From contig CM026433.1 in the NCBI GenBank assembly GCA_014871385.1, positions 15,565,985-15,629,984 on the forward strand: a DNA stretch of 64,000 nucleotides, in the 5' to 3' direction. Below are positions 29,778 through 56,432 of the stretch, in pieces. Source of the DNA: Ceratodon purpureus. Taxonomy: Eukaryota > Streptophyta > Bryopsida > Pseudoditrichales > Ditrichaceae. Each line of letters opens with the position of its first letter. Position 1 is the first letter of the stretch. Under the pieces are notes generated by a model. The model made no database searches. It saw nothing but the letters and a program-made list of their open reading frames with translations, and had not been told where the DNA came from. Both the position numbers and the translations under genes were made by a program.

Positions 29778-32288
29778 CCCCTAAATGGCAATCATCCACA
29801 TTTGGGCTTTTTTGGAATTTGGGCATGTACCTATGAATGCAATTTACATTGGGATTTTCTGAAATTTTTATTAAAGGTGGGCCGTTTGGAGACCTTCGTG
29901 TGGGTATTTTTATTTTTCAATTCCGACATTGGGATCAAAAGTTATGAAGATTTAAAAGTCAAACGCTACTTGTTCGGCAACTGCTGAAATTTTCTAAGCC
30001 ACTGTGAATACAGCAAATTCTGCCCAAAACTGCCCAAAATTGCGAAAATCTGCCCAAAGACAAAACTTTAAAATTCCACCAAAAATTGACATTTTGATAT
30101 TTTTCAAAAATAAAAATTCTGTTTATAGAGAAGGCAGTAGAGCATGTTTCCACTGTTCGGATTTTCAATCCAAATTTTTTTCATATGCTATTTTATTGTC
30201 AAAAAACGGTCTTTGTACATGAATTTCAGCATACCCCCTAGCGGAAAATGATTTTTTTGGCAACCTTCCACAACTTTTTTGAATGTGGTGTTTTTTGGAC
30301 ATGTACCTAACTCACTTAGTAACAATAATATGGAGAGTCGACTCATTCCTTATCTACTTTAAAAAATGGTTTTTTGGGCCTTCAAAACTCTGCTGTCTCC
30401 TTTTTTTGCAGGGAAAAAAAACTTGTTTTTTTACTTTGAACTTTACGATCTTGCAATTGGTGAGGAATGAGTGTGTGATATTTTTTGAACATATAGACAT
30501 AGAAGTTAGCTACAAAATCTTACGGTTAGTTGTACTAAAAAAGACCCCAAGTTTGCAAAATCCACTTTGCTTTGAAGAGGGGTTGTTTTGAGGCAGTTTC
30601 GATGAAAAATACCCTCAAAACTTTAGGAGTTATACATATTAGAATTGTTACGTGCAATTTAGAATCTCTTTGTATAGAACTGTAGCGAGTGTATGTCAAT
30701 TGCTGGAGGCAAAATGTGGTGTTAAATCCAAAACTTAGAACTTCAAAACATGATTCGTATTTTTAACAACTTTTAAAGGAACTACACATTTTGAATCAAA
30801 TAAAACCTTCAATCAAATATCTAAAATTAGTAAATAAGCAGTTCACATGATCCTCATGTTATCATGTTTAAGACAAATAAAAAACTTGTAGATGATGGAT
30901 TACATAGATTTTGAGAATTTTCAAGGTGGAAAATGAAAAGGTTGTACCCTATGCATTGTTGTTTGAACATTGGGCCTAGTTAAAATGACTCCGTTCTAAT
31001 GCAATTGATAGTAAAAGAAAAGTGATGGCATAGGCAACAAAAAAGATAAATTTAAATTTAAAAAAAACAAAAATCATTAATTTCCTTATTATGGTTTACT
31101 ATGTTTGGTGAAGGTACGGTATTATATTCATTGTTACAATGCTATATTTACTACTATAGTGTTGTGTTCATTGTTATGGTGCTATTTTACTATTATAGAG
31201 AAAAATTGACTACATTTTTGGAGCTTTATTAAATACGTATATCTAATCAAGTGATATCACAATGAACGTCTAGTACAGACAAAAGTCTAAAGTGATTTGT
31301 TCAAACGTCAAATCATTCCAAATCAAAAGTTATTTAGGTTCTAATGATTTTCCAAACGCTTTCTTGTTGTATGGGCTTCAAAAACTTAAGAATATTATTT
31401 TTCTCTATAACCTTCTATAAATAACCAAGTGTAGTGAATTTACTATCTACTATTGGTTCTTTGATCAACAATATGTTCCCTTTAGTTAATTCCTAATCCT
31501 TAAAAATTCGTCATTTTAGGGTTCTTCAATATCCAGAGCAATTGTGGAGAAGCCACAATTTTAAGATGATATTTTTTTAAGAAACGCTATGTGTTGAAAT
31601 TAGTAATATATTTATAATATTTATCTATATAATTGTAAGTATACCTTGATCAATCAAAAGTTGATTAAACCTTATTTAGATTGAACTGTTAGATTGGAGA
31701 ATTATTGTATTTCTTTGAATTGTATAATGCACATCTTAAAATGAGATTATGGAGGATTAGTGACTTCAAAGTTAAACAAATTTGTTACAAATGACCTATA
31801 TCAGCACCTCTTTGATGCAATTTTCCATTTCAAGAACATACCTACACATATTTATTATGAATTTTATAAGTGAAAGTGACTTATTGATGTACGGTTTAAA
31901 ACCAAAAAATCCCTTTTAAAATTAAAACAAATTGATACATTGATCAAGATTAGAATATATAAACTTATAAAACATGAACTAGAGAAAACGATCCAAAAAA
32001 ATTAAAACAATATAACAAACTTCCAAACATAAAAAACAGCACATTGTGCATGTCTTGTATTTGTAAATATTTTTTGTATTTTCAAGTTCTTACAATACTT
32101 TTATGTTTTTTCTACAAGTGCTTCAATAGTTGCAAAACTCCAAATTAAACAAATTATTCTCTAGAAGATACATATTATAATTCTCTAGTTATAAACTTCA
32201 AAATTCAAAATCCAATTTTTTACAGATTTACTGGTATTTACATTTTTGACACTTGTGTAACCAATATGGTCTTCTAGGCATTAAAGGG
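29778..32288. mobile_element. Possible large TTAA-flanked element
   Basis: It starts TTAA|CCCCTAAATGGCAATC and a compatible end, GGCATTAAAGGG|TTAA, lies at 32288. Internal stretches (about 30.0-30.5 kb) are the inverted counterpart of the element at 38931-39764. The start also matches in reverse the end of the element at 37575-38552. Pairing of these two ends over 2.5 kb is uncertain, and it may be a composite. Confidence 0.35.
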
Positions 32289-37570: not shown

Positions 37571-37574
37571 TTAA

Positions 37575-38552
37575 CCCTTAAAGTTCCTTGAGTATGTTTC
37601 ACCAAAAAACACTTCAAAATTACCATTTTCAATGTAAAAAGCATGAATGACTAAAAAATCATTATTTTGAATTTCTTATCGTAAGATCTTTAAATAGATT
37701 ATTGTCGTAGATGGCTCAATAAATTTCATCATGATTGACCATGGAGATTAAAAGATTGTTGTTTGAAATTTGAAAACAAACTTTTCATGACACGATTTTT
37801 GACTAGGTCGACATACTCTCACTATTTTTTTCTTAGGTTTTTTGCACTATGGATTTTGGTGGTTTTGGTACATGACAAAGATAACTAAGTTAGCTAATTG
37901 TATAAAAAAAACAATTACACACAAAAAACAAGTGTAGCATATTGAAAACAATATTTTTATTGAGTTAAATGCAATAGAATGCTAATTCATATTTCTTTCC
38001 GAGAAATTCCATCATGGTGTAGATCCCCAATCCAAACGGTCAAAGTAAAGATTGATGTCCATACTTTAAGTGAAAAAAAAAAAAAAAAAAAGAAAAAAAA
38101 CCTAAAAAAACAAATTTTCTAACTTTTATGAAGGAAAGAAGAAGTTTTATAGTACACTATCCGAAACGGTGAAAAAACTTGAATATTTTGTGGAGTGAAC
38201 CTTTTGTACTTAAAGTAGTTTTTTTTTACAGGAAATCTCAAAGATGACAACATTCAGTATTCATAGAAAAAATCTTAGAGGTGACATATATATTTAGCAT
38301 GGCTACTCGAATTGCCCGTTGAACACCTAATTTCACTTCGGGTACCATAACTATTTTTTAAAACGTTTTACTAAAAAAAATTATATAATAATAAAAATAA
38401 ATAAATAAATTATTTTTTTAAAAAAAATCCCTCAAAGTCTTTGCTACGACAAACATTCAGAAAAGGTTTCAAAAAATCTCGACTTAAATTGAAGTTACAT
38501 GTGAATGCCCGAATTCTAAAAAGCCCAAATGTGGAAGACTGTCCTTTAGGGG
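37575..38552 (+). mobile_element. TTAA-flanked element, copy A of a three-copy family
   Basis: 978 bp between TTAA (37571-37574) and TTAA (38553-38556). It begins CCCTTAAAGTTCCTTG and ends GACTGTCCTTTAGGGG. It is collinear with copies at 41540 and 52212, with shared internal landmarks such as GCATGAATGACTAAAAA, AAACGGTCAAAGTAAAGATT and GCCCGAATTCTAAAAA. It has no long open frame, so it is non-autonomous. Confidence 0.75.
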
Positions 38553-38930
38553 TTAAAGAATACTTTAGTCAACTAAAATCTTTATTTCAAAAATAACAAA
38601 TCTAGGGTCACTTCAATTACAATGCACCAATAGTTGGAACTGGCTATTGTGCTCCGGAGTAGACATAGAACATAATGAACTTCACTAAATGGTGAAATTA
38701 GGTTTTGTTGCACCAGTTTTTTTGAAATTTCACACTTTATGAATGTATATAGATTCTTGGATACTTTTTATGGATTTCCAAATACAAAAATTTGTGAATT
38801 TAAAACACCAAAATGTACACATTCTATCTAATACAAATATCCAACCATGTTCATTCCTTTGATCATTTATGTCTAACTGTGTGTTATTGACAAATCTACA
38901 AATTTGTAGACATGGGAACTTAACCTTTAA

Positions 38931-39764
38931 CCCCTAAAGTTGAAAGGCCTCAAAACTACCAAAAACCCTAAAAATTAAATTCTTTCAATACAAGGTGTAA
39001 GTTTTAAGTTTTGATGTATTTTGGGGAGAAATAACTGTAGGATCTAGTACCTTACTTGTACATGTATATGTACCCCAAATCTTAGATTCAAACTTTTTAT
39101 CGTTTGTGAGATCGTAACGTTCTAAGTTGAAAGAAAAGTTTTTTTTCCTTGTTGCAAAATGGGTTCCAAGTTTTTCGAGAGCGAAAAAAACCTATTTCAA
39201 AAGCAAACTCGATGTGAGGCTCTTCAAATTCTTGTTCCTAGATGATTTAGGAATATGTCCATGCACTTTTTTCCCTCATACAACCTACAAAACCTAAAGA
39301 AATGCTTGATTTTTCACATGGGAGTATGCTGAAATTCAAATACAAAGGCCGGTCTATGATAGTAAAAAGGGCATATGGAGAAATATTGGATTGAAAATCC
39401 AAGCGGTGAGATCATGCCTTGAAATTGTATTTACAAGTAGTAAAAACAAAACTTGAAAAAAAAAAATCTCAATTTTTGGTGATTTTTTGAATTTTCTGTG
39501 ATCTAATTAATTTTAGACAAATTTTGAGCATATATTGTAGTTTTGGGCAGATTTGAGCATGCCTGAATAGTGTTTTCAAATTTTGACAGCGGATATCTCC
39601 TAAAGTAAGTATGAGGAATTTTGAAGCATGAATGGTCTTATTAAAAAGGTATGAAAATTTTCCATGTTGTGCCAAAGTTAGAGCCACATCCACTAAAATT
39701 TGACTCATAGGGAGCATGACCAGACCCTAAATCATACCAAAATTGCTGAATTGATGCTTAGGGG
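38931..39764 (+). mobile_element. TTAA-flanked element, different interior
   Basis: 834 bp between TTAA (38927-38930) and TTAA (39765-39768). It begins CCCCTAAAGTTGAAAGG and ends TTGATGCTTAGGGG. The interior is unlike copies A-C but resembles, in reverse orientation, sequence at 30.0-30.5 kb, and part (GATCGTAACNTTC) recurs near 49.65 kb. No coding capacity. Confidence 0.6.
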
Positions 39765-39768
39765 TTAA

Positions 39769-41535
39769 ACGACAATTCCTTGCCAAATATGACGTCCAAA
39801 ATCTCTTTCTATATCCATTTTAAGCACAATTCTATTTTTAATTTGCTTAGGCTCTATTCTAGAAAAGTATAGATCTTTTTAAAGTGCTATGTATGACATT
39901 CTAAAATTCCATTTGTTATAATGAAGTATAATTTATGAGCAAGATTCTCTCAAAATAAAAACAAGCCCAAGGGGTTAGGGTTGTCATTTAAGGGCTAATA
40001 GCATTATATAATGTGTAACTATTGAAATTCATTGAACAACCACAGAGCTTGAAATGACCCATATCATTCAGTTTTTCACCAAAAAAAAACTCATTATGTA
40101 TTATAGTACTCTAATACCATAGCAAGTTTGTTATGGCAAATAAATATTTATTTCTTTTCAAAAAAATAATCTCTGCCTCTCAAAACGCTAAATTTCTCAA
40201 TTTTCAAAAATAAGGTTTCTCATGCATGTCTTAGAAGTAATAAAATGTTGCAAAAACTAGTTGGTTTTATTTTTTCTCTCATTATAATTTTATAATTTTT
40301 ATGTCTTTTATTTTTAGAATTATTTTGGAACAAACCTCCTATGGCACGATGGGAGTGGTATACCAACGCATTCCAAAGTTAATAAAGAAATTGCATATTT
40401 GTACTTTGAGTTAGGATAATGTTGTTGATTAAGATGCAACAAAATAAAATCCTTGCTTGCATAATAAATGCAGATCTTGATGTTTTTTTCCTTCTCTTTT
40501 CTTCTATTTGAGAATACCAGTAGACATGAATCTTTGTTTTGACCATATGGATTTAAACTTTATAAGAAATTGCATTACCAAGAGAATAAAATGTGAATTA
40601 GTAATATTTTGAATCCATATCCGTATTACAATTTGTTTCACAAATATACACCTATGTAGAATCTCTAAAACATTGAGTAAATGAAACTACCATCATGTAG
40701 AATATACTAGTGTAAAATTGAAAACTTGTACAGTGCAAATTTTTGACACTCAAAAAGTCAAATTTTGCTAATCTTGCTTGAATAGGATAGAAAATAACAA
40801 TTTTATTTACTTCAAATTCTATAATTTTTCAATCAGTATAATCAAGTTTGATGAATTTTTTGTGCATTTTATTATAGTAGTATTCATCTCTAAAAGCTAA
40901 ATATATTTGACCAATCTTAGATATGTTATAATATAGGATTTTACAACTCTAGTGATATCCATTTCAAAAAGAATTCAAAATCATAACAAATAGATATCTT
41001 CGATAAGGTTGAAAGTTGAAAGATCATATTCAATCGTTATCAAATATTTTAAAAGTAATATATCTTTGAAAATACATTAAATTTCCAATTTTTATTAGTA
41101 TTTGAAATTTATTATGATTGATTGAAATCATAAGTTGCATTCATTAAAAAAGAAAAATGTGCAACAAGATATTTAGAACATCTTTATTTTTTGAAATAGT
41201 GAGTTGTCTAATACTAAAAAATTGTTGGGCCTATTTTAATAATTTCCATATAATTAAATTTTGACAAAATTGACATCATTTTGAAATAATTTACTTGGAG
41301 GGAATTCTTTTTGATAATTTATCTTTCAAAAAAATCAATGAAATTATTTTCTTCACTAAAAGTCATCCAAAATAGTGATACGATCTAGCACAACGTAGTT
41401 TGGACTATGGCCAATTGGCTAATTTCTAGCTCCAATGATGCAAATGAAATCATCTATGTTGTAAAGCATGTTAGTAGAATTAGACCATAACCACTATTCA
41501 GAGCAACAATCACGTCAACGAGGGGTTGGCATGGT
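39769..41535. other. AT-rich gene desert
   Basis: Only short, random-looking open frames and A/T runs are present. I see no gene, RNA or bounded element. Confidence 0.45.
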
Positions 41536-41539
41536 TTAA

Positions 41540-42439
41540 TCCCTAAAGTTCCTTGACTATGTTTCACCAAAAAATGCTCCAAAACTGCCATTTTCAATGT
41601 AAAAAGCATGAATGACTAAAAAATCATTATTTTTTAATTCTAACCGTAAGATCTTCAACTAGATTATTGTAATAGACAGCTAATTTTTTTTCAATATAAT
41701 TGACTATAGAGATTAGAAGATTATAGCAATTGAAATTTGAAAACAAACTTTTTGACAAGATTTTTGACTAGGTTGACACACTCTAACTTTTTTTTTCTTA
41801 GGTTTTTTGCATTATGGATTTTGGGGGTTTTGATGCATGTCAAAGAAGACTAAGTTAGCTAATTGTATTAAAAAAATTTACTCACAAAAGTCAAGTGTAA
41901 CATGTTGAAAAAAATATTTTTATGAAGTTGAATACATAAGAATGTTGTATTTTATTTCTTTCCTAGAAATTCCATTATTGAATAAAGTTCCAATCCAAAC
42001 GGTCAAAGTAAAGATTGATGTCCATCCTTTCACTGAAAAAAAGAAAAAACCTAAAATAATATTTTTTCTAAATTTTATGAAGGAAAGAAGAAGTTTTTTT
42101 AGTACACTGCCCGGAATGGTGAGAAAACTTTGATATTTTGTGGAGTGAATATTATGCACTCAAAGTTGTTTTTTTTTGGAAACCTCAAAGATGAGATCAT
42201 GAAGTATTTATAGAAATATTCTCAGAAGTGGTTGATGTATTTAGCATGGTTGCCCGAATTGCCCATGGAGCAGCTTTTTCCACTTCGGGTACTATAACTG
42301 TCCAATTGGAAAAAAAATTAGATTCCCTTAAAGTTCTTGTTATGGCCTATATTCACAAAAAGTTTCAAAAAATTGACTTCAATTGAAGTACATGCCCGAA
42401 TTCTAAAAAACCCATTCTAGGACAATTGTCCTTTAAGGG
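41540..42439 (+). mobile_element. TTAA-flanked element, copy B of a three-copy family
   Basis: 900 bp between TTAA (41536-41539) and TTAA (42440-42443). It begins TCCCTAAAGTTCCTTGACT and ends GTCCTTTAAGGG. It is closest by eye to copy C, sharing GTACACTG near the middle and TTTGTGGAGTGAA. Non-coding. Confidence 0.75.
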
Positions 42440-42443
42440 TTAA

Positions 42444-43370
42444 TGGTCACAAAATACCTATTTTACAAAACATTTAAAGCATTGTGAGATCTATTCGTGA
42501 AATTGATGGTCCTGTAATAATAAATCTGGTGACATATTTACAAAGTCTCACTCCAACTTGCAGCTCTTAGGATAACTCTTAACGTTTCAGGATAACTCTG
42601 GAGTCTGGAATATCCACAGTAACTTGTACCAGGTGCGCCTCCTGATGACTGTTATGTTCATGAGATTGAATGGTGGGATATCACTGATAAGCATAGGGAT
42701 ACACAAGCTGTCCAAAACGTGCCTTCCCTGGTGCAAGACACCAAAGACATTGTTGGATGTGCACACAATTTTAAAATAATGTCCATGTAGCCATCCACAG
42801 CATCTCAAGGTGATCCTTGTGAGAAGCGTGCAACCCAAGGAAGTGTACGGTCTCCAGCGAGATGCACACAATCTTTGAAATTCCACAATGATATGGCTGA
42901 TTGAATTCTAAGTTAGCATGGAGAGAACAGTTGCATTCCAACCCAAGTTCCACTGGACGTAGCAGACTGTAGTGTTGAACATAGTAATAGAGTAAGAATT
43001 AACTTTGTGTGGTGGCATTCATGCGGCATGTGCTCTCGCATCAGTTGGAGGAATAAGTTAGTAGCAGTCCAGTCCAGTCCAGACTCCAGTCCAGTCCAGT
43101 CCAGTCCGTGTTTTGATGTGTAAGTTAACCCCATCCGTGGTCCATGTGACCCAAAAATAGGTTCCCCCAACTCTATCCAATTAGTGTGGCTCTCATGAGA
43201 AACAGGTGGAGCTGCACCAATGCTCATTGCTCAGCCCCTCGTTCAGAATCTTATTGGTGGTAACTATCCCTTCCTCTTGCAATTATGGAATATCCACCGA
43301 ATTAGTAATCTCTAGTTCTGTCCGCTTCCCTCCAATCCTGCTTGCAGAGGACTCCTAGTTGCTGCCACTC
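42444..43370. other. Non-coding DNA with a CCAGT microsatellite
   Basis: The sequence is more complex than the surrounding desert, but I recognise no gene. CCAGT is repeated at 43069-43107. Minus-strand frames at 42587-42953 show no family feature. Confidence 0.4.
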
Positions 43371-43385
43371 TTCTATCATTGAATT

Positions 43386-44150
43386 TTTTTTTATTTTTTT
43401 TGACACAAATAAAGGGGGGCCCTTTACTGCAAAGGAAGGAAAAAAGTACAAATACATGCCACCCCCACCATGTCCGGCGAGGGCGGGGAAACCAGAGACT
43501 AAGGAACAGGCCTACTCCTCACTAATTGATCTAAGACTCGGACAGACAATGTGCCTGCGCGGTTGGGAATCCTCCCAGCTGGCGAAATTGCTCAAGGAGG
43601 TCTTGCACCTTCTTCGCCGAAGTAGCTTTTTTCTTGATATCAAGGGAGGTTTTCTCCCAGGCCAACCTGCCGTATTCGATGAGCCCAATCCAAAGTTTGC
43701 ACCATGTTTTCTCGGGTGGCCAAAGTGTCCCATTGAATGCCCTGTCATTCCGTCCGCGCCACAAGAGCCAGATTACTGCGCCTCTCAAGAGGAGCGAAGT
43801 GCGGCTGATTTTCTTGAAGCGACGTGGAATCCTGTGTGCAAAAATGCAGTGTTTCCAATTTAATTGGATCCGGTGATGCTGCGTGGGAGCATGCCGCCCC
43901 ATCTGTAGGGTGTTGTGCCTCAAGTCACGGTTGAGGTCGATTGAAGATGCTTGCTGTGCCGAGGATGCTTGCTGTGTCGAGGGGGCTCTATGTGCCCTTG
44001 ACGCACTTTGTGCCTCCGGGGCACTTTGTGTCCCTGGGGCCCGGAGAGCCCTCACGGTGCCTTGAGTCACAATGTCGTCCAGGACCCTTGTTGGCTCTGC
44101 GAGCCAGGCAAGGAGTTGAGCGTGACGACCGGTGGGGGGACCTATAGATG
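43386..44150 (-). mobile_element. 5'-truncated LINE (non-LTR retrotransposon) insertion
   Basis: The 765-bp insert is flanked by identical 15-bp target duplications TTCTATCATTGAATT (43371-43385 and 44151-44165). On the minus strand it ends in an A-rich tail (T runs at 43384-43401 on the plus strand). Its minus-strand frame carries IWLLWRGRNDRAFNG..., typical of the zf-RVT region at the C terminus of plant LINE ORF2 proteins. No reverse transcriptase core remains, as expected of 5' truncation. The 5'-most 150 bp (43925-44070) is a degenerate short repeat (GATGCTTGCTGTG, GCACTTTGTG) of unknown origin. The intact duplications suggest a fairly recent event. Confidence 0.82.
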
Positions 44151-44793
44151 TTCTATCATTGAATTGAAGTTTGAACAGAGACTGGACTAAATTAGACTCG
44201 ACTTTGCTCGGCCAAGTAAATAATTAAACAAAGAAAAATGAATAATAAATAGAATTTAAACTAGCAGTTGAAGCCTGGTGCCTGGTGCTGGGTTGTTTCT
44301 AAATGCGGCCTCCCTTCCTCCCTGCGGATGCGATGCTATATGGGGACACTCGTTCATGATTGATTGTGATCCCTGATATTTAGGCTCTAAATGTTGAGGG
44401 GAAGGGAAGGGAAGGGGGGCGGCCATGAGAGCCACTTCTTCTAGAGTTATCCAAGTGCAGTGGTCCAAGTCCAACATGTGGTGCAAAGCCACCATCCCTG
44501 CATCTTCTTCTTCTTCACTCCGCCTAAGTTCAGTCAGTCAGTCAGTCATCTGGAGCCACCTAAATGAATATTCACGCCCAGAAATAACTAGTACTGCACC
44601 CCAAAACAAAATTAAATAAGAAAATAACAATCCCCCAATTCACGCGCGGGGTCTATTGTTACCTCAGAACCAATCCATCCATCAACGTGGTAGCTCCTAG
44701 CCATCAATGCATGCCACAAACCCACCTCCGAAATTAAATGTAAAGGCATCACAACCCAAACCAAAATCAAATTCCAACCAGTCCGAAAGGAAA

Positions 44794-44840
44794 GAGAGGA
44801 GAGGAGAGGAGAGGAGAGGAGAGGAGAGGAGAGGAGAGGA
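44794..44840. repeat. GAGAG microsatellite
   Basis: Nine or so units of GGAGA lie upstream of the AdoMetDC gene, followed by a GGGCA repeat at 44880-44938. Both fall in the putative distal promoter and could be length-polymorphic. Confidence 0.8.
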
Positions 44841-45289
44841 GGGGCAGAAAAGCACATGGTGGGGGAAAGCGTAAGAAAGGGCAGGGCAGGGCAGGTTAGG
44901 GCAGGGCTGGGCTGGGCAGGGCAGGGCAGGGCAGGGAGGGGAAGGAAGTAAAAAACACACCAAGGAACGCGCACTCCACGGCTCCAGGTGGCGCCACGTC
45001 GTAGGGCAGCAGGGGGGGCGCGTGCCCGGAACCATCACGCAGCGACCCTCCCACCACCACCACCACCACCACGACGCATGCATCGACCGACCCCCCATAG
45101 CCCCCCCAAGCCCAAGTTCAGCCCGGGCCCCGAATCCTCCTCGCGACAAGCGCAGCGACCTACCGAACCCAAGCCACGCCATGGGGCCATCGGGCCATGG
45201 GGCCTTGGGGCCATCGGCCATGAGCAGAGTGAAGGAGGGAGTGTCCATTCCCTGCGGTGCCTATTCCCGTCAAACCCTCGCCCCAGCCG

Positions 45290-45296
45290 TATAAAG
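45290..45296 (+). promoter_or_regulatory. TATA box of the AdoMetDC gene
   Basis: TATAAAG in a GC-rich context is followed about 30 bp later by CT-rich leader sequence typical of a plant transcription start. It lies about 650 bp before the first uORF. Confidence 0.65.
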
Positions 45297-45792
45297 GGAC
45301 GACGACTGCACCACTTTGGAAAACCTCCCTGCGTAAACCTTCCCCTTCCATTCCTTCTTGCGTCTGTGCACCCTCTCCCCTGCCCCAAAAGCCCTCGCCC
45401 TCCCCCTCCCTCCCTCCCTCCCTTGTCCCTCCCTCTACCCTCTGCCCCGTCCCCTACTAGTCACTCCGCTCCCCTCACGAAGTTAGTGTTGAGTGAGCCC
45501 TTCTCTTCCTCTTCTCTCGTCTCTCTCCTCTTCACTTCGCGTCTGTTGCCTTCGCCACACTAGCTCTTCTTGCGCCTTGCTTTCCACGCCCCCTCTCTCT
45601 CTCTCTTGCCCTTGTTGCCTTCTCCCCCAGTCTGTGCCCTCCTGCCTTCGCCCTCTCTGCACCGGCTCTTTCCTCCCTGGATACGAGCGTCTCTTGAGGG
45701 TATTATTATTCCCTTTTTGGTGTCTGCGTTGGGACGCCTTCATCCAGTTGCGGTTAGGGGTTTCCCCCGTCCGTCAAGACGACGAAGTCATT

Positions 45793-45927
45793 GTAAGTTT
45801 TTTATCGGGGGATGGGAGTGGATAGGGGGGTTTGGATTTTGGTGTGTGTGTGTGTGTTTTTTGGTTGTGGAGATTTGTGTGATCGTGTGTTGACGGTTGT
45901 TTTTTTTCTTTCTGTGTTGATCTGTAG
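45793..45927 (+). other. Leader intron upstream of the AdoMetDC uORFs
   Basis: The donor ATT|GTAAGT and acceptor CTGTAG|GG are good matches. The intron lies in the CT-rich leader and ends 9 bp before the tiny uORF, as expected for the AdoMetDC gene layout. Confidence 0.7.
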
Positions 45928-45936
45928 GGTATCTGC

Positions 45937-45945
45937 ATGTTATAA
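45937..45945 (+). CDS. Tiny uORF of the AdoMetDC leader
   Basis: ATG TTA TAA encodes Met-Leu. Its final A is the first base of the small uORF's ATG (TAATG overlap). This one-base overlap of tiny and small uORFs is the established arrangement of plant AdoMetDC mRNAs. There the tiny uORF lets ribosomes bypass the repressive small uORF when polyamines are low. Confidence 0.88.
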   Translation: ML

Positions 45946-46203
45946 TGGAGACCAAAGGTGGTAAGAAGTCGAAGAGTTCAATACAATACGAGAGTCCGCT
46001 GGGATACGTGATTGAGGACGTACGACCGCACGGAGGGAGCGAGAAGTTCCGCACTGCTGCATACTCAAACGTAAGTCGGGAGTCTGGGGGAGGGTGAATT
46101 GTGGAGTTTTGGTGGTGGTTTTGGGGGGATTGATATGTGAACGCGGAGATGGCTGATGATGTCGCGGTGTCTGTGGGTGCAGTGCGTGCGCAAGCCATCC
46201 TGA
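45945..46203 (+). CDS. Small uORF of AdoMetDC, polyamine-responsive, split by an intron
   Basis: Exons 45945-46070 and 46183-46203 (donor AAC|GTAAGT, acceptor TGCAG|TGC) encode 48 aa. The peptide has the conserved blocks METKGGKKS, YESPLGY and EDVRPHGG, a KFRTAAYSN stretch, and the terminal CVRKPS, matching the plant AdoMetDC uORF peptide nearly position by position. In other plants this peptide stalls ribosomes at high spermidine/spermine and represses the downstream enzyme. Its amino-acid conservation, not just its presence, supports the same regulation here. The intron falls between the SN and CVRKPS codons. Confidence 0.93.
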
Positions 46204-46433
46204 TATTTGCTCAGGGGTAATCGGCAAAAACATAGATTAGATTATTTCTCCTTTCTGCCTCAGGGGCTGGTCTGTTGTGTTCTCGTTGTGGACATCTCTG
46301 CGGATCTGCAGATCAGCTCCCCGCTCGGGAGAGCGGTTTAACCTCCCGTCCTTTTTTTTGGTTCGGAGTCTCTGCTTTGTAGATACCCTTCACAGAGAGG
46401 AGGGATTTTTTGTCTTTTTTTTATTTAGTAAAA

Positions 46434-47591
46434 ATGGGTGTCTCGTTTCCGAATGATACGGGCGCGACGACTGGCTCTGTCGCCAGCCCAGGTTTTGAAG
46501 GATTCGAGAAGCGGCTAGATATTGAATTTCATCCTGCCCCCGTTTTCAGCGATCCCGAGGGGCAGGGCCTGCGGGCGATTCCTCGCGTCGAGCTTGACAA
46601 CATGCTGCGCGCTGCAGAGTGCACGATTGTTGCTCACATGAGCAACGCGGAGCTAGACTCTTACGTGCTGTCGGAGTCCAGCCTTTTCATCTATCCGCAG
46701 CGCATGGTGATCAAGACCTGCGGCACCACTCAACTTCTCTGCGCAATTCCGCTCCTTCTGGAGGCGACTGCTCGACTGGCCTTAAAAGTCAGTCGTGTTA
46801 AGTACACCAGAGGAACATTTATTTTTCCGCACGTGCAACCTTACCCGCACGGCAGCTTCACAGAGGAGGTTCGTTACTTGGAGGAGTATTTTGGAAATCT
46901 CGGGGACGGTGGGAAAGCTTTCGTGATGGGAAGTAAAGGTATATTCCCCAATTGGCATATCTACACTGCAGCAGACCATGGAGTTGAAGCCGACCCTGTT
47001 TATACTCTAGAAATGTGTATGACTAAGCTTGATAGGCAGGCAGCAGGAATTTTTTTCAAGGCTTCTGGTTTGGAAACTGGTCCTGAAATGACGAAGGCTG
47101 CCAACATTGACAAAATGCTGCCAGAATCACGTATATGTGATTTCACCTTCGACCCCTGCGGCTATTCCATGAATGGTATTGAAGGAGGTGCACACTCTAC
47201 TATTCATGTTACTCCTGAACCTAATCAGAGTTATGCTAGCTTTGAAGCTATGGGGTACAACCCCTGGCAAGTGGACTTGCCATCACTAGTGGAGAGAGTT
47301 GTTGCTTCTTTCAAACCTGCCGTCTTTGCCATGTCTGTGCATGTGACGGATGGGAATAGGGCTTTACATACTTCTGGATCGTGGGGGGAGTCGTACTGTC
47401 CTAGAGGTTACGTTTGTGATGGTAGTAGCCGTCAGGAGCTACCTTGCGGAAGTATCGTGGTGTTTCACACATTTAAGGAGGCGAATGGATTTGGAGATTC
47501 TGGCACTCCCTTAGCACTCATTCGAGGTGGACATGTCAGTCGTGGGACGAAGAAGGTTGTGATCAAGAACATTAAAGGTCTCAGGGCATGA
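46434..47591 (+). CDS. SAMDC: S-adenosylmethionine decarboxylase proenzyme
   Basis: The uninterrupted 385-aa ORF makes the pyruvoyl enzyme that decarboxylates AdoMet to supply aminopropyl groups for spermidine and spermine. The self-cleavage site is LSE|SS at Glu81-Ser82, Ser82 becoming the pyruvoyl group. Cys95 lies in KTCGTT, and Ser245 (CGYSMNG) and His258 (TIHVTPEP) match the processing residues. Glu22 and Glu25 lie in the N-terminal FEGFEK. ETGPEMT is near the PEST-like region of plant enzymes. The ATG at 46434 is the first in frame; upstream in-frame sequence has no ATG. The ORF is preceded by the tiny and small uORFs. A further leader intron ending TTTAG at 46427 (donor possibly at 46217) is conceivable but unproven. 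The protein acts in the cytosol. Confidence 0.96.
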   Translation: MGVSFPNDTGATTGSVASPGFEGFEKRLDIEFHPAPVFSDPEGQGLRAIPRVELDNMLRAAECTIVAHMSNAELDSYVLSESSLFIYPQRMVIKTCGTTQLLCAIPLLLEATARLALKVSRVKYTRGTFIFPHVQPYPHGSFTEEVRYLEEYFGNLGDGGKAFVMGSKGIFPNWHIYTAADHGVEADPVYTLEMCMTKLDRQAAGIFFKASGLETGPEMTKAANIDKMLPESRICDFTFDPCGYSMNGIEGGAHSTIHVTPEPNQSYASFEAMGYNPWQVDLPSLVERVVASFKPAVFAMSVHVTDGNRALHTSGSWGESYCPRGYVCDGSSRQELPCGSIVVFHTFKEANGFGDSGTPLALIRGGHVSRGTKKVVIKNIKGLRA

Positions 47592-50500
47592 GCAGGTTAG
47601 TCTTTAATTGTTGCTTATGTATTCTATTTCATGTTATTGGGATGTCTAAAGTCCATTGAGATTATAGAAATTGATTTCTATGTTTGTATGACATTAATTC
47701 TGATAAGATGTTGTTATGCAGACATATATTTACTCCTATTTTGCGTCGATGGTGGATATTCTTCCCGGAGGACATATAGAATTCAGACACTTCAAGCACG
47801 CAGTTGAGTCCATAGTGAGTCTATAGGCGGGTATAGGATAAGCCATTTATTTTCAATGCCAAGAGTTTCCAGAGTTCTTTGCATTTTTTCGGTTGCCAGA
47901 GAAGATCTGTTGATGTGATCATGATCTTTCTCGATCGAGCTACTTGTGTATGTTCTGTCTGAAATATATATTTTGTATCTGTTCCTCCAACTGTTCCTTT
48001 GTAAGATTATTCTTCGTGACCTGCTTGCATTCTTATCTTTACAGTCAACTTTAAAATCATATGTTGAATGGGTTAACAGAAATGTTTCGATTGTGATGAG
48101 ATACTGAATATAAATTTATACTTCCCGAGATATGATATATATGGATTGTATCGTCCCATAATTAAAGGCCAGTCACAGGATTCGAATCCCTAAAATTGCT
48201 CATCGCTTAAGTCTGATTGCACAGCGCTTCATCGCTTCTCAGCATTGACATATGTAGTACCTTACATGTGAGACCGTAAGTAAGGGGTCTGGTTGGTGGG
48301 TGAACTCTAGGGTTGCAAATTCATCTGCGGCGGTGTCAGAAGGGCGGCGTTTCTGATTGTTTCGATTAAATCCTAGAGTATATATCGGGTCAAATTGCAA
48401 CACCTAGAAGGGCAGCTGCAATGGTGATCGTAGAGCCAACAGCCGAGACCTGAAAGTTATCTGCAAGTGGTGCTAACTGACGCATGTGGAAAGGTGGGGA
48501 CGGGAGGAATCGTCGAGTCACCTCAGTGGCAGTGGATGCATGTAGTCACAAGCAAGACGGTGTCCCAGCCAGCAGATGCAGCAGACAATCTTCTTCCGGG
48601 ACGAGCATAATATCTCCTTGTAAATTAAGCAAGTGATGATGGGAACAAGCGCTTTGCTCATTTCTTTAGCCTTTTCACGATGAGTAGAGTGGAAGCTGCA
48701 TTCGGTAATTTATTTGCCATCGCCCAAGTCTACGGTACACCAAAGTTACCATGCTGCGGCCCACGGTGCCTTATGCTATGACCTTGCAGCGTTTAGAAAA
48801 TGTATTGAGAGATTAAAAAAAGAAGTATTTATGACCAAAATTAACCTTAATTCTAAATTTTTGTCACATGAAATATAAATTTCAGAGCCGCACTGTTGAC
48901 AGCCATGACAACCATGAAGATAATGACAATGGTCTCTTCCCTCCATCATTCAATTATCAACAATACATGATGATTTTGGTGTAGTGAGATGGTAAATTTA
49001 ACAAAAGACTATTACTACAGTTTATGAATACCTTGAACATAAAAACCACTCTAAATGAAATCAATTTAAAAGTCCACTTTGAACAATTATGTATGCCTAA
49101 TTTTTATTTTTTTGGATTTGCATGAAGTGTTTAAATAGAAAGAAAATTTTTAATACAAAAAGAACACTACCTTAGAAATGCAACACTGATATCTTACAAA
49201 GTACTATATCATGAACACAGTTCCAAAAAAATTAGAAAATCGAGGAAGGTTTATGAGTTAAGAACTTTTCCACTAATAAGTATTTGAGCTACACCAAATA
49301 TATTTAAATGTATTTTCATTGCAACTTGGCTCTAAAGTTTCCCACCAACATCACATTAGGGCCAAAAAAAACCTTAACTTTTGTACCAAATTATGTATTT
49401 CAAAGGCATTTTATAGTATTAAAAGAAGTCAGTGTCAAGCTTTTAACCACTAACTTTCCTTGTGTTTTTGGAAGCTTGAAACCTCAAAGCTGCGAATTTT
49501 TACCTCTGTGCACTTCCAAGGGTGTAAACAATTTTAAAAAAAAATTCAAAGACTTTCAACCATAAAATCTTTAATCTAAGCCTATTTGTAGTTCTGATTT
49601 AAAAAACTAACCGTTGGATGATTATCGTTTTCAAGATCGTAACATTCGAAGTTTGTGCAAAAGTTTTTTTTGGCATTGCTTCCACGGTGCGAAGAGAGAC
49701 TTGAAGATTGTTACCTCAAACATTTTGGTCATATTTTTTCAATGTAGCTAACTAAGTTAGCTATGCTCATGCAAAATTTTAGGGACTCAAAACGCTTTTT
49801 AGACCTTCATGCAAATTATTTTCTATAAGAAGGTATAATATTAACAAAATAGTAAAACATGCATTACAAAAACAATTTGTGAGGTAGGTACCTTTATAAA
49901 TTTGTGAATTTTAGAAAAAAAAAAAAATTACAAAAATTCAAAAATCTCAAAATTTGACAAATTTTTAAAGGAAAAACTAAAAAATTACCAAAAACTTTCA
50001 AGCTTGTTGTTGTAAGTTTTGGAGGCTGCTCTTGTAAAATTGGTCAACTTTTTGACATAAGTCACTATGGAATTTGAGTAGTGATTTGATTATGAACATA
50101 TTTCAATTTTTGTTTTTTTTAAAGACCTAATTTTAGACTGCCCGTTTTGGACTTGAAACCTAAAATTTCTAGATGAAGGTTCTAAAATTGGAATTTGGCT
50201 TCAAAATTTTTACTACATAGACCTTACCATAAAGGGAGCATCCAATAAAAATATTGAAAAGAAATATTACTTTTAACCCTTCCATCTAGGCTGCCCAAAA
50301 TTGCAAAAACCCATTTTGGGTTTCAAAGATAGTTAGGGGTCAAAAACTAAAGAGAACCTTCTCTCCTACAACATTGGACTTTAAAAAGCAAACAATCTAA
50401 TTGGAATCCAAAATCAAAATATATGAAGAACTCATGAAGGTGCATTAAAGCCTAAAGGCGTTGGTATGGAGCATGAATTGATGGACGATTGTAATGGTGT

Positions 50501-52211
50501 TGCAGAAAACTCCTTCAATATAATTGGTCTTGGACATGCCAATATAGTTTTATAAGAGGCCTTTACCTCAAGCAAATGAAGAAGCCCAAATGAAGAAGAA
50601 CTTTATTTTAAAATGAAAATTGTAAATCACCAATGCCAAGTGACCACATTCTCCACATCTGCTCAAATGAGCCCACCAAGGTTTGAACCTAGACCAATTA
50701 TATGAGATAAATGCTCTTTTCAATCAACAATGAACAAATGGCTTGGCGTTCAAATTCCCGTAAAAAACAATCCTTATACCAATGAGTCCTTGTTTGAATT
50801 GGTTTTAAATTTTGTTATTAATTAGTTATGACGATAGTGTCTATTCTAAAAAAGAAGACTAGTTCTTTACTTTTGTTTATTTGTCTCGTGGACATAAGTC
50901 TAAGGGTGGAATAAACAAACATGTCATTCACGTCGGTCTCCTTCGGAAACCAAAGTTTTTCTTCTTCTTGTTAAAAATTGGCTTCTTTTTACCAACAATG
51001 GTCCAATATTAATGATTATCAATGGCTTGATAATTAGAGCATAATACTGCTAGTGGAGCATGGAGCATGGAGCATGACCAATCCTTCATAGTCCAAGAAT
51101 TTTATCTTTGTTTACTTAATTTAACATAAACTCTTGGAATTTTGAAAAGGAAATAGGTCTATTTTTAGTCTGATCCAATCCTATATTCTCATGGTCCTAA
51201 ATCTCACCAAAAGTATTGCTATATAAATATTTAGACAAACAAGAAACTTTGAGATTTGGCCTTTCATTTAAATCCCAAAGGTCATTTTTTTTTGCTACTG
51301 CAATTTGATTTTGGTATTCAACGGACTCTTGACCTTTGGTTTCCATGTGAATTGGTCCAAATTGGTGGAATTTTTGAGCTATTCATTTTTGGAAACTGGC
51401 TATAGTATGCAACGGCCTTACGCTTAGTACGTGCAATGTTTGCATATATGGGCTACCTCTTGTAGTCCCAAACATCATGAAACTTAAAAGATAGTCACTT
51501 TGACATTATGATGAAATCAGGAATAACTTATTGGTTTTTTGTTATTTTGTCACCAGGTTAATATATCAAAATAAGAAAAAAAAACCTAAAAATATCTTAA
51601 AGTTAAGAGATATTAAAATGACATGAAATTGAGGCCAAAGAAACTTTAAAATGGCATTTTATATTAGTTTGATGTCATTGTAACTTATATCATAATAACG
51701 TCATTTTCGTCTCATTTTGGCAATATTTTGATCTAGGTTATTTTAAAATCAATATTATATAGTTCTAATTCATGTCATTTTGTGTCAATTTAATGATATT
51801 TTTAACCCTTTGAATGCCAAGACAACCGTAAACTAATGTTAAATCCAAATTTATCAGTTTGATGTTTGACCCCAAGTCATGTCAAATAGACACAAAGTGA
51901 TTATGCTAATGAGACAAGTTATTGGACTTGGATTCTAGGAAAATTTCTATGGTAACTAAAATAAGAAATTTCTTTATTATTAAGACAAAGGCAAGTTGTA
52001 CTACAAGGGTTCATGTGCAACTGCATAATAATTAAGTTTTGCAAACTTAAAGAGTATCAAAATTGTAACCTAAATCTTTTATTCTTTCAAGTCACTTATG
52101 TAGTAATGATTACCATAACACCATAGCAGGTTTGTTCTTTGCCAAACGTGTATTTTTTTTTATCTTTTTTGGAAAAATAAGGTTCTTTTCTCAAAAATTG
52201 ATTTTCTTTAA
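47592..52211. other. AdoMetDC 3' flank, then AT-rich gene desert
   Basis: The first 400 bp or so is probably 3' UTR. From 48.8 kb the sequence is AT-rich with fragments related to other repeats here (near 49.6-49.7 kb to the 38.9-kb element). TTAA-CCC starts occur without a confident partner at 50277 and 51805. A near-tandem GGAGCAT triplet occurs at 51055-51074. No gene was recognised. Confidence 0.45.
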
Positions 52212-53135
52212 CCTCTAAAGTTCCTTGACTATGTTTCACCAAAAAAACGCTCCAAAATTGCCATTTCCAATGTAAAGAGCATGAATGACTAAAAATAAAT
52301 AAAATTCTAAATATAACCGTAAGATCTTAAACTAGATTATTTTAATAGACAGCTTAAAAAAATTAAATATAATTGGCCGTAAAGATTAGAAGATTATAGC
52401 AATTGAAATTTGAAAACAAACTTTTTGACAAGATTTTTGACTAGGTTGACACACTCTAACTTTTTTTCCTTAGGTTTTTTGCATTATAGATTGTCGGGGT
52501 TTTGATGCATGTCAAAGAAGACTAAGTTAGCTAATTTTAATAAAAAAAAGTTACAACAAAAAATCAAGTGTAGCATGTTGAAAACAATATTTTTATTAAA
52601 TTGAATACATAAGAATGCTAAATCTTATTTCTTTCCTAGAAATTCTTTTATTTAATAAAGTCTCAATTCAAACGGTCAAAGTAAAGATTGATGTCCATTC
52701 TTTCAGTGAAAAAAAGAAAAAACCTAAAAATAATAATTTTTCTAACTTTTATGAAGGAAAGAAGAAATTTTTTTAGTACACTGGCCAAAACGGTGAGAAA
52801 ACTTTGATATTTTGTGGAGTGAACATTATGCACTCAAAGTCGTTTTTTTTTGGAAACCTCAAAGATGACATCATGAAGTATTTATAGAAATATTTTTAGA
52901 GGTAATTGATATATTTAGCATGGCTGCCCGAATTGCCCATCGAGCAGCTTTTTCCACTTTGGGTACCCTAACTATATTAATAAATGTCCAATTGAAAAAA
53001 AAATTAGATTCCCTCAAAGTTCTTGTTATGGCCTATGTTCACAAAAAGTTTCAAAAAATCTTGACTTTAATTGAAGTCACAGGTACATGCCCGAATTCTA
53101 AAAAAGCCCATTCTAGGACTATTATCCTTTAGGGG
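52212..53135 (+). mobile_element. TTAA-flanked element, copy C of a three-copy family
   Basis: 924 bp between TTAA (52208-52211) and TTAA (53136-53139). It begins CCTCTAAAGTTCCTTGACT and ends TATCCTTTAGGGG. It is collinear with copies A and B over its full length by eye. Non-coding. Confidence 0.77.
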
Positions 53136-53556
53136 TTAAAAAAAAACAACAAAAAATCAATTAAAACAACCTTAAATGGCTTAGATATAACAAAATATGA
53201 CAAAAAACAATTCATTCTATTTATTATCTCTTGTCTTCATAAATTTCAAGATTTTCCATTTTTTTGGAGAAATTATTCAAGTGCTAACGTGCTATGGTGT
53301 TCGGTAGTATAGTGTAATTTACATACATGCGCTTCGTCAAATAATTCAAATTTAGGAAGACAATCTTTCTTGGAAATTATGAAACCATGTTGCCAGATGT
53401 AGTTAAAATGGGGTAAAATTAAAAGATCAACATTGAATCCAGTGATCAACTATTAAAATAGAAGGTTGTAGAAGAAATGGATTTAGGTTTTGTAACAATG
53501 TTGGGCTAAAGGGTCAACCACTCCAGGTGACCCAGATGACCCATTCTGTTACTTAC

Positions 53557-53847
53557 ATTAACCTTCCTGTAAGCTGCCATTTTTCTCATTGTCTGTTTAA
53601 GAAATTTCCTGCCAGCTGGATAACCATCATCATCAAATTCGAAATACTGGACAGTATGATATTGGGTTTCACAGTTTGAAATCCAAGGCCCAACTGATAA
53701 CTGCCATGATGCCATCATAGTTTGGCAGCTCATGAACAGTTGCAAGGGCTCACAAGCCAGTTTCAAGTGTACAAGTAAATTGTACTCCGAGTATATATCA
53801 AAAGTTTTGTCCATCATTGACCACTGCTCTTCTCTTGACTTCCTCAA
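53557..53847 (-). pseudogene. Possible orphan exon or gene fragment
   Basis: The minus-strand frame reads like real protein, including MMDKTFDIYSEYNLLVHLKL and FEFDDDGYPAGRKFL, then MRKMAAYRKVN. It ends at a strong donor (AAT|GTAAGT, 53556-53551). I find no partner exon or promoter, and it is wedged between two TTAA-flanked elements (ending 53135 and starting 53866). I do not recognise the family. It could be a degraded gene, a captured exon or chance. Confidence 0.3.
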
Positions 53848-53865
53848 TGGATTTGTCTAACTTAA

Positions 53866-54403
53866 CCCTTTAAGGACCGGATTCAACACTGTTTTTAAAG
53901 ATTTGTTATATAATGGTTGAGGAATCACGAAAATTGACTTGATGTGCAAAGCAAAGTTGCAAATGTCAATGTGAAGATAAGATCTTTACAGTTGGATTCA
54001 TAATATTCATTATTAATATTTTAAAAAGAATTTTGCAAGTTTTTCTCTTGAAATTCAATTAAAATTCCGAAATTAACTCAATTTTTTTTTTGAAATATTG
54101 TTATGAAATGAAAATAACTTACATTATGAGATGGTATAGTTTCCATTATTTGATTTCACTTATTATGGAAAATCATATTTGAGATCTCACTTTCTGAACT
54201 AAGAATGAAACTTGACATAATCTACTTTTATGGATTTTTAGAAAATTACAAGATCTTATTTTGAAGATCCATACCGTACAAATGATAAACATCTAGCACA
54301 AAATTGAAAAAAAAAGGGGGATGAAAAACATCCAATTTCTACAGAAATTAGGCTCCTGGATTTCATCCGGCATCCAGAATCTGGGCGCCAGCAAGTTAAA
54401 GGG
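53866..54403. mobile_element. TTAA-flanked element, 538 bp
   Basis: It lies between TTAA (53862-53865) and TTAA (54404-54407). It begins CCCTTTAAGGACCGG and ends GCAAGTTAAAGGG. The ends are complementary for only 8 bp and the interior is unrelated to copies A-C. Non-coding. Confidence 0.6.
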
Positions 54404-54743
54404 TTAAACACCCCTGCGCAATGTGGCTCAAAGCAAAGGTTTGAAAGAGGGTGAGAACTTCGAAGGGTGGGGCAGAACTCTGTCCCTATTATTACATTGG
54501 ACTGGATCTTGGGGGCCCCGCTAAGAAAATTGGGGCCACAAGTCTTGTTTTAGCGCCTCAAAAAAACCTCAAGAACTCCAAAATGACCACAGCTTGAAAA
54601 ATAGACCAAACCAAGCTTGAGGTTTGGTGCAACACTCATTTAAAATTAAAATACCAACTAAAATTGGATTCAATTAGACTCTAAAACAAGGACCCCTTTA
54701 CATATCATATTTGCAAGACTTATAGAAGCTACATCTAGGAGGT

Positions 54744-54746
<3 letters not shown>

Positions 54747-54828
<82 letters not shown>
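54747..54828. repeat. (AT)n microsatellite, about 82 bp
   Basis: An uninterrupted AT dinucleotide run just left of the TTAA-type element beginning at 54840. The length may be unreliable in an assembly. Confidence 0.95.
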
Positions 54829-54829
<1 letters not shown>

Positions 54830-54839
54830 AGAACCTTAT

Positions 54840-55387
54840 CCCTTTAGGGCCTAGCAAACCAAATTTGGTCGTTTTAAACTGAATTTTGGGAATTGGAACA
54901 ATTTCTTAGCTTCAATTGCCTATGAGCTATGAACAAGATGTGAGGGCTCGGAAATTACGTTTCCAATGAGCCATTGGCCATCAAATTTGGAGTAATAATA
55001 ATTTGTCCATGGCAATTTGAAGTTGGGATTTCTAGAGTTCAAAATGTATTGTGGAACATGTTTTTCTATCAAATTTATTTGTGTATAACTAAAGAGAGCA
55101 TGACAACTTCACCATAGTGTTCTATATATATCTAAATAAATATTCTGTTAAATTTTCATGGAAATGAGATTTTTTGTAATTACTACAAATTTTCAAAGGT
55201 AGAAACTCTAAAAAATATTGTAAATTCCATTTCTTTCCAAAAAATATTCAAAATCAAATCTGATAAAAGACATGATTGGTTGTTTGTGTAAAAATAATAA
55301 ATTAAATTAAATTATAAAATTTCAATATGAATATTTGATTATAAAGAAATTCAAGAGATTGCTTGGGGCTCCTTAGGCCCTAAAGGG
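54840..55387. mobile_element. TTAA-type element with 14-bp perfect inverted repeats
   Basis: It begins CCCTTTAGGGCCTA and ends with the exact complement TAGGCCCTAAAGGG. The right flank is TTAA (55388-55391); the left is TTAT (54836-54839), one base off. 548 bp, no coding capacity. It shares its right TTAA with the next element. Confidence 0.72.
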
Positions 55388-55391
55388 TTAA

Positions 55392-56047
55392 CCCCCTAAC
55401 GTCCATGAAGCCTGATTTGGGCTTATGTAGCTGGTTTCTGGCCTATAACTTTTTTTCGACAAGGAATTCGATTCTGAGTCCAACTAGAGAGTTGGGCAGG
55501 TTGAAGTTAGCTATCCAATCCACTTTACCTCACATGAATTGAAGTCTCCAGTCAAAATTTATGGCCATTTGAGTGGCAGTGGGTATGAGAAAAGCCAGAA
55601 AAGCTCCTTGTGACCTAGCAAATTTCCTCAAATTTTCTCAAAGAAATTTGGGATTTGATCCATCTTTGAACATCAATATCTTTAGCTAGGATGTGCGGAT
55701 TGGGGTACTTTCAATTCCCACACATTTCTCATGCCCTGATGCTCCCAAAACGCAGCTTCTCTAAAAAAATTTAGAAGAAAAAAAAACAAAAAAAAACAAA
55801 AAACATGTGACAAAATGCTGTTTTCAGTGAAGCAATTCTCAGCTTTTTCTTGACAGATTTGTTATAATATCTGTGACTTTGATTCGGAATGGGACAATTC
55901 TCCGTAGATAGATTAAGTGCCATGCTACAAATCTATCCGTACGGTTAGATTTTTTGAAAAAAGTGCCAAATTTGAGCTATGAAGCTTGCAATTAGACCCT
56001 ATCTAAAATCCCAAAACAGCCTAAAAATAGTCTTGGACGTTAAGGGA
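55392..56047. mobile_element. TTAA-flanked element abutting the previous one
   Basis: 656 bp from CCCCCTAACGTCCA to TGGACGTTAAGGGA (12 of 14 complementary), flanked by TTAA at 55388-55391 and 56048-56051. The interior differs from its neighbours. Non-coding. Confidence 0.7.
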
Positions 56048-56432
56048 TTAAAGGACTTATTGCAGACTAGAGAGACAATTGGAACTCTAGGCACGTTCTC
56101 ACAATGTCAACTTTGAAGGTAATTTTTTTGATTTTTTTTGTGGATGTCGGTAATACAAATACAAGAGCTTCATGCAAAAAAAGTTTTTTATTTTATTTAT
56201 TTTTGTTTTGTTTTTGGTTTTTGTTTTTTGGTGGGCCTCTAGAAAATAAGTTATGCTCCTTTAAGTGATTTCCGTTAACAAGGGGGTAGTTTCAATATTT
56301 TGCTATACCCTTCTACTATTTTTGAGGTCTTTTTTATACAAAGTAGTTAACTTGATTGCCTTCAACATTGGTTAAACAAAACCCAGTCCATCCTAGAAAA
56401 AAATCATGCTCCTCTTCAGTCATGATGAATTG

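Follow-up and report, generated by a model that had tools for sequence, protein, structure and literature searches.

A stretch of 64,000 nt from the moss Ceratodon purpureus (contig CM026433.1, positions 15,565,985 to 15,629,984 of the forward strand, hereafter the window) contains a cluster of short segments bordered by TTAA and ending in CC-type inverted ends, which raises the question to which class of mobile element these segments belong. With a probability of about 0.96, they are non-autonomous members of several families of the piggyBac superfamily, resembling miniature inverted-repeat transposable elements (MITEs), in a land plant. By comparison of sequences it could be shown that transposase-bearing elements of the same genome belong to this superfamily, that TTAA is duplicated, that three window families have ends in common with the transposase-bearing elements and that the families are dispersed.

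TTAA-flanked elements of the window and their genomic copies

The initial annotation of the window had listed eight elements. Six of them, described as lying between exact TTAA repeats with CC-type ends and the complement at the other end, were confirmed on the sequence, and the same holds for the seventh (54840-55387), for which one flank had been given as TTAT. For the eighth (29778-32288) the element itself was borne out by a related copy, but its end was misplaced, and a ninth element had been missed. The resulting inventory, in window coordinates, is as follows.

37575-38552, + strand: non-autonomous piggyBac element of the main family; TTAA at 37571-37574 and 38553-38556
38931-39764, + strand: non-autonomous element of a second family; TTAA on either side
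41540-42439, + strand: main-family element, 81% identical to the 37575 copy and 88% to the 52212 copy; TTAA on either side
52212-53135, + strand: main-family element within an older dispersed repeat; TTAA on either side
53866-54403, + strand: non-autonomous element of a third family; TTAA on either side
54840-55387, + strand: non-autonomous element of a fourth family; TTAT on the left, TTAA on the right
55388-55391, no strand assigned: single TTAA common to two back-to-back insertions
55392-56047, + strand: derivative of the piggyBac family L009/L010/L011 that has lost its interior; TTAA on either side
29778-30629, no strand assigned: non-autonomous element, right boundary corrected; flanks TTAA and TTAT
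49447-50339, no strand assigned: ninth element; flanks TTAA and TCAA, ends CCACTAACTTTCC and CCCCTAACTATCTTT

The left ends of the elements at 37575, 38931 and 41540 are CCCTTAAA, CCCCTAAA and TCCCTAAA, and those of the elements at 52212, 53866 and 55392 are CCTCTAAA, CCCTTTAA and CCCCCTAA, respectively. The right ends of these six TTAA-flanked elements are similar complements of their left ends. Identity among the three main-family elements (37575, 41540 and 52212) amounts to 77-88% across most of their length.

The window sequence 30627-29778 aligns to a copy of its family at locus L066 (L066:432-1291, 860 bp) with 84% identity over 865 columns. The eighth element therefore spans 29778-30629, the final two bases being extrapolated, with TTAA and TTAT as flanks, and 32288 was discarded as the partner of 29778. 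The ninth element is 75% identical over 814 columns to L069:1947-2879 and 71% identical over 770 columns to L068:1767-2681; its right edge was taken from the L068 copy and its left edge from the TTAA-CC sequence pattern alone.

The flank pattern of the window was compared with 30 dinucleotide shuffles. Single TTAA plus CC-type ends were found in mild excess, with 21 left ends against a shuffle mean of 14.1 and 17 right ends against a shuffle mean of 15.0. Of pairs whose ends agree at 9 or more of the 12 terminal bases, 4 were found, compared to a shuffle mean of 0.03 (maximum 1). Two of the four pairs are false, one (29778 with 32288) being mis-paired and the other (53866 with 55387) spanning two elements. 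Taken by itself, the flank pattern is suggestive; the proof lies in the genome copies.

These copies were searched in the window's own genome (362.5 Mb, 151 contigs). Scoring was limited to 40 candidates per search, and most counts are lower bounds. First-look candidates numbered 2677 for 37575, 3280 for 38931, 318 for 53866, 26 for 54840 and 59 for 55392; the match counts below include the window copy itself. For 37575, at least 18 full-length copies (base 1-2 to 978) were present among the 46 matches listed. The corresponding values are at least 31 among the 42 matches listed for 38931 (base 1-2 to 833-834), at least 36 among 41 for 53866 (base 1-2 to 536-538), at least 19 among 27 for 54840 (base 1-4 to 547-548) and at least 23 among 40 for 55392 (base 1-2 to at least 654). 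All five window elements searched have many dispersed copies with edges that are sharp at TTAA, the boundary which the initial annotation had suggested looking for in genome-wide copies.

The first 29 bases of the main family, taken together with the preceding TTAA, have 824 occurrences in the genome when up to 3 mismatches are allowed, while the reversed control gave 0 occurrences. To sample the flanks, copies were picked by exact identity to 30 inner bases, irrespective of the sequence outside, and the first 30 of the 133 copies obtained in this way were used. TTAA was found on the left in 27 of the 30 copies, the remaining three reading ACAA, ATAA and TCAA. For 19 of these copies the right end could be recognized as well, and TTAA was present on both sides in 14 of the 19. 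The 19 loci were aligned with five copies from the 37575 search and the three window copies. This alignment of 27 copies leaves out the 11 sampled loci without a recognized right end as well as L005 and L007, and it counts both L066 and L067, which have nearly identical flanks. Conservation ranged between 0.85 and 1.0 over TTAA and between 0.30 and 0.67 in the 26 bases outside on either side. The mean Kimura two-parameter distance to the majority sequence was found to be 0.11.

Some copies are arranged in close proximity. Within 0.3 Mb (C2:23.30-23.60 Mb), 8 of the 27 listed matches to 54840 are located, four of them being half copies from base 269; they form a local tandem or segmental array. 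On C11, two main-family matches (11719181-11720071 and 11720077-11721010) are 5 bp apart. In the window, two elements of different families at 54840-56047 have one TTAA in common, and the insertion of one of them therefore hit precisely the duplicated target of the other. Two more TTAA-CCCTTT(G)AATGCC ends, at window positions 51806 and 32288, have no counterpart to pair with and possibly represent solo or truncated elements.

Transposase genes and their relation to the short elements

A search for genes of the DDE_Tnp_1_7 type, which had likewise been suggested at the outset, found them to be abundant in the genome and, wherever intact ends could be identified, enclosed by TTAA-CC ends. With 998 first-look candidates, at least 116 scored places were above the curated cut-off of the profile (PF13843), with a best E value of 5e-84. 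In 14 control genomes, the profile had no match (0 of 14). The window itself had no tblastn match to 30 fetched transposase cores at E <= 1e-3, in agreement with the earlier statement that it holds no transposase.

An in-frame stop was absent from 25 of the 30 cores, which fall into ten groups at 70-80% identity. The open frames of the largest cluster comprise 657-1071 codons, counted on genomic sequence with introns not split out. Three aspartate columns, taken as the catalytic ones by analogy with piggyBac, and a fourth aspartate column are D in all 30 cores. Compared with solved structures, the L011 transposase matched piggyBac (6x67, E value 8e-30) and piggyBat (9c0f, E value 1e-28) with the catalytic aspartates aligned. 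Of 8 elements, 7 have a cysteine-rich C-terminus in frame, recognized by pattern in four and by reading the translations in three; in the long frame of L010x none was seen.

Two transposase matches with identical scores (G000:C1:26682207 and C1:26687522) are located 5.3 kb apart, which is about one element length, and may represent a tandem duplication or two elements arranged head to tail. For several loci of the largest cluster (L012-L038), the similarity stops near GTAAGT or GTGAGT about 345 bases past the core, suggesting that a conserved intron is followed by another exon on the 3' side.

Next, the ends of nine transposase elements from six families were inspected, of which eight, with lengths of 3.9-5.6 kb, are bounded by inverted TTAA-CC...GG-TTAA. 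L010x (4646 bp) has the end TTAACCCCCTAACG. L009x (4637 bp) and L011x (4605 bp) both lie within TTAA-CC...GG-TTAA, the left end of L011x being mutated (CCACATAA). Including TTAA, the inverted repeat is 19 bp in L014x (3949 bp), where it is perfect, 19 bp in L024x (5535 bp), 18 bp in L029x (5130 bp) and 11 bp in L028x (5127 bp). The inverted ends of L022x (5583 bp) match at 12 of 14 bases after TTAA. L024 and L022 had been chosen without a visible end, and CC-type ends were found in both.

L009x and L010x are 95% identical over 4650 columns, and the similarity stops at most 2 bases from TTAA. Further near-identical transposase loci are L034 and L037 (98% over 4.1 kb) and L031 and L036 (99% over 3.2 kb). 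The similarity within these three pairs suggests that movement was recent; segmental duplication is an alternative source of near-identical loci.

The families of 55392, of 37575/41540/52212 and of 29778 are tied to transposase-bearing elements by sequence similarity. Counted with its TTAA flanks, 55392-56047 is 76% identical to the left end of L010x over bases 1-208 and 72% identical to the right end over bases 275-664 (390 bases), the middle being absent, and it matches the ends of L009x and L011x similarly. The element at 52212 is 67% identical over 214 columns (E value 2e-11) to the left end of L024x, a member of the largest sampled transposase group, and short stretches match at the right end, too. 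In the majority sequence of the 27 main-family copies, the right-terminal 100 bases including TTAA are 76% identical to the first 100 bases of L024x without a gap (E value 3e-15), and 192 columns near the other end match L024x at 68%. The reversed majority sequence, used as a control, had no match to the transposase-bearing elements. Bases 26-139 of the 29778 element are 72% identical over 114 columns to bases 30-142 of L024x, where the L024x count includes TTAA.

No partner of the main family had been found among the first 30 transposase loci with 1.5 kb flanks, because a flank of this size stops short of the ends in most loci; it emerged once wider L024 flanks were fetched. With DDE_Tnp_1_7 genes within TTAA-CC ends and three window families linked to them by sequence, the piggyBac identity initially proposed was upheld. 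The idea that one transposase mobilized several MITE families turned out to be too simple, as different window families are matched by different transposase families, of which there are at least two.

Target duplication and alternative explanations

Two clean paralogous cases of an empty site were found. The joined flanks of the main-family copy at L066 (near-duplicate: L067) match L002 with 84-87% identity, and L002 holds a single TTAA. At L069, a 933-bp element of another family (L069:1947-2879) is nested inside a main-family copy. This site is empty in register in 36 rows, representing 35 distinct places, of which L001 is the window's own 37575 element. TTAA was identified in 7 of the 36 empty rows including the three closest ones (92.5%), one of which is the window element 52212. 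The single TTAA in both paralogous sites indicates that TTAA is the duplicated target.

For 52212, the joined flanks match 32 other places across the junction. The flanks themselves (52112-52211 and 53140-53239) are part of an older dispersed repeat, which occurs at least 32 times elsewhere in the genome. These empty places show the absence of the element and are no proof of the target there. A self-match of the L068 junction was spurious, being its own flank on the other strand.

Several observations weigh against the interpretation of the segments as piggyBac elements with a duplicated TTAA. The empty-site evidence is paralogous and comes from the moss's own genome only. At the L069 site, 29 of the 36 empty rows read other than TTAA, which is expected of old copies and is not proof. 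Five of the six window junctions searched match only the window itself, the 29778 junction in that search having been built on the wrong boundary. For 52212, 20 of the 32 empty places were fetched, and a T/A tract of variable sequence was found at the site; TTAA is present in L085 only, one base off, and 11 of the 20 read TGAT. The L050 junction, with 73% matches to two places in the window, was dropped as empty-site support; TTAA is absent from the site in the one place that could be aligned. Damaged flanks (TTAT, TCAA) border some of the window elements.

Among the transposase-bearing elements, the ninth one inspected, L072, is degenerate with broken frames, and a pattern search found no intact TTAA-CC end on either side of it. 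As a relative of 55392, this C8 locus was set aside, its alignment beginning at base 7 of TTAA plus element. L009-L011, L014, L028 and L029 were chosen as a CC-type end was visible within 1.5 kb. The edges of L011x, L014x, L022x, L024x, L028x and L029x are those of inverted ends or of more distant copies. In addition, the majority sequence of the main family has a 29-base internal match to L011x (E value 7e-4), which looks like chance. Finally, the families of 38931, 53866, 54840 and 49447 are without a terminal match to the eight transposase-bearing elements compared.

The last point is what favors the view that some of these four short families are mobilized by another enzyme with a TTAA target and have nothing but the terminal CC motif in common with the piggyBac elements. 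This view is nevertheless improbable. The 38931 element is 65% identical to that at 29778 over about 400 columns, and the 29778 element matches the end of L024x; all four families have TTAA-derived flanks and CC-type ends. Furthermore, ends were inspected in only 9 of at least 116 transposase elements.

Still less probable is the explanation, already considered in the initial annotation, that TTAA is the outer part of a longer inverted repeat without any duplication, as in another class such as foldback elements. TTAA is palindromic and adjoins the inverted repeats, and flanks alone cannot discriminate between the two cases; moreover, an exact TTAA is missing from the aligned site in the 29 rows of the L069 site and in 20 of 20 places for 52212. 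However, L002 and the three closest copies of the L069 site hold exactly one TTAA, and the same ends enclose transposase genes, so that a repeat without duplication is very unlikely.

An assignment to the Kolobok superfamily is hardly conceivable. Its elements duplicate a TTAA target as well, but according to the passage cited their ends are 5'-RR...YY-3' (PMC9587614), whereas 5'-CC...GG-3' was found here, and the transposase differs, as the enclosed genes match DDE_Tnp_1_7 at an E value of 1e-84 and also match the solved piggyBac structures. For the families tied to a transposase, Kolobok is refuted. PIF/Harbinger (Tourist) was rejected, since it needs a 3-bp TAA/TTA duplication (passage in PMC10004981) and here four TTAA bases are conserved with a sharp drop outside.

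Proposed mechanism and comparison with known systems

The full-length elements of the genome encode a piggyBac-type DDD transposase with a cysteine-rich tail, which, judging from its family, would bind and cut the TTAACC-type ends (TTAACCCC). The element would be excised and joined into TTAA by cut-and-paste chemistry, whereby TTAA would be duplicated, and excision would presumably be seamless. The short copies retain the ends without the gene and would therefore have to be moved in trans; the assignment of a particular enzyme to a short family is likewise putative.

The chances are about even that the moss harbors a large, diverse and recently mobile piggyBac radiation, which would be the first complete piggyBac lineage including transposases to be described from a land plant. 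This reading rests on the ten groups among 30 sampled copies, on hundreds to perhaps thousands of short derivatives, on loci that are 95-99% alike and on the open frames. If true, the lineage would be a natural source of piggyBac enzymes for plant genome work.

TTAA is also targeted by Sola3. Of the same superfamily, Sola1 is listed from Physcomitrella and is a cut-and-paste element in a moss (Table 1 of PMC9033089). The elements described here are like piggyBac of Trichoplusia ni (6x67) and piggyBat (9c0f) in the TTAA duplication, the short CC-rich inverted ends and the DDE_Tnp_1_7 transposase with D-D-D and a cysteine-rich tail, and unlike them in that the host is a land plant. With 3.9-5.6 kb they are longer than the T. 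ni element, for which a passage gives 2472 bp (PMC10140906). They are within the range of 1.23-9.51 kb stated for animal piggyBac elements, and CCCTT is described there as the most frequent start of the ends (passages in PMC10813416).

For angiosperms, piggyBac was counted among seven MITE superfamilies in a passage that mentions no transposase-bearing element (PMC10004981), whereas the moss genome has such elements. A 2022 review of transposable elements in land plants names six cut-and-paste superfamilies (Tc1-Mariner, hAT, Sola, MuDR, PIF-Harbinger and CACTA; PMC9033089). The word piggyBac has 0 occurrences in this review, which is in line with the initial remark that the superfamily is poorly documented in land plants. 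Against strict novelty, one fern genome table contains a PiggyBac row (1230 / 122417 / 0.00; PMC6890710), and plants are mentioned in passing as piggyBac hosts in passages of two animal papers (PMC10140906, PMC10813416). No bryophyte piggyBac report was found in the titles and abstract openings searched, which cover the literature in part and leave subscription journals mostly outside; one bryophyte paper matched the search word by 'piggybacking' only. Host and scale are new, the kind of element is not, and piggyBac is poorly documented in this host group.

With at least 116 transposase matches in addition to the short derivatives, piggyBac is an abundant component of this plant genome. The finding raises the question whether piggyBac was lost from most plants or entered mosses sideways. 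It also provides piggyBac enzymes adapted to plants, together with a system for targeting TTAA that is testable in moss.

Between the elements of the window, a gene for S-adenosylmethionine decarboxylase was identified at 46410-47588 on the + strand (E value 1e-104).

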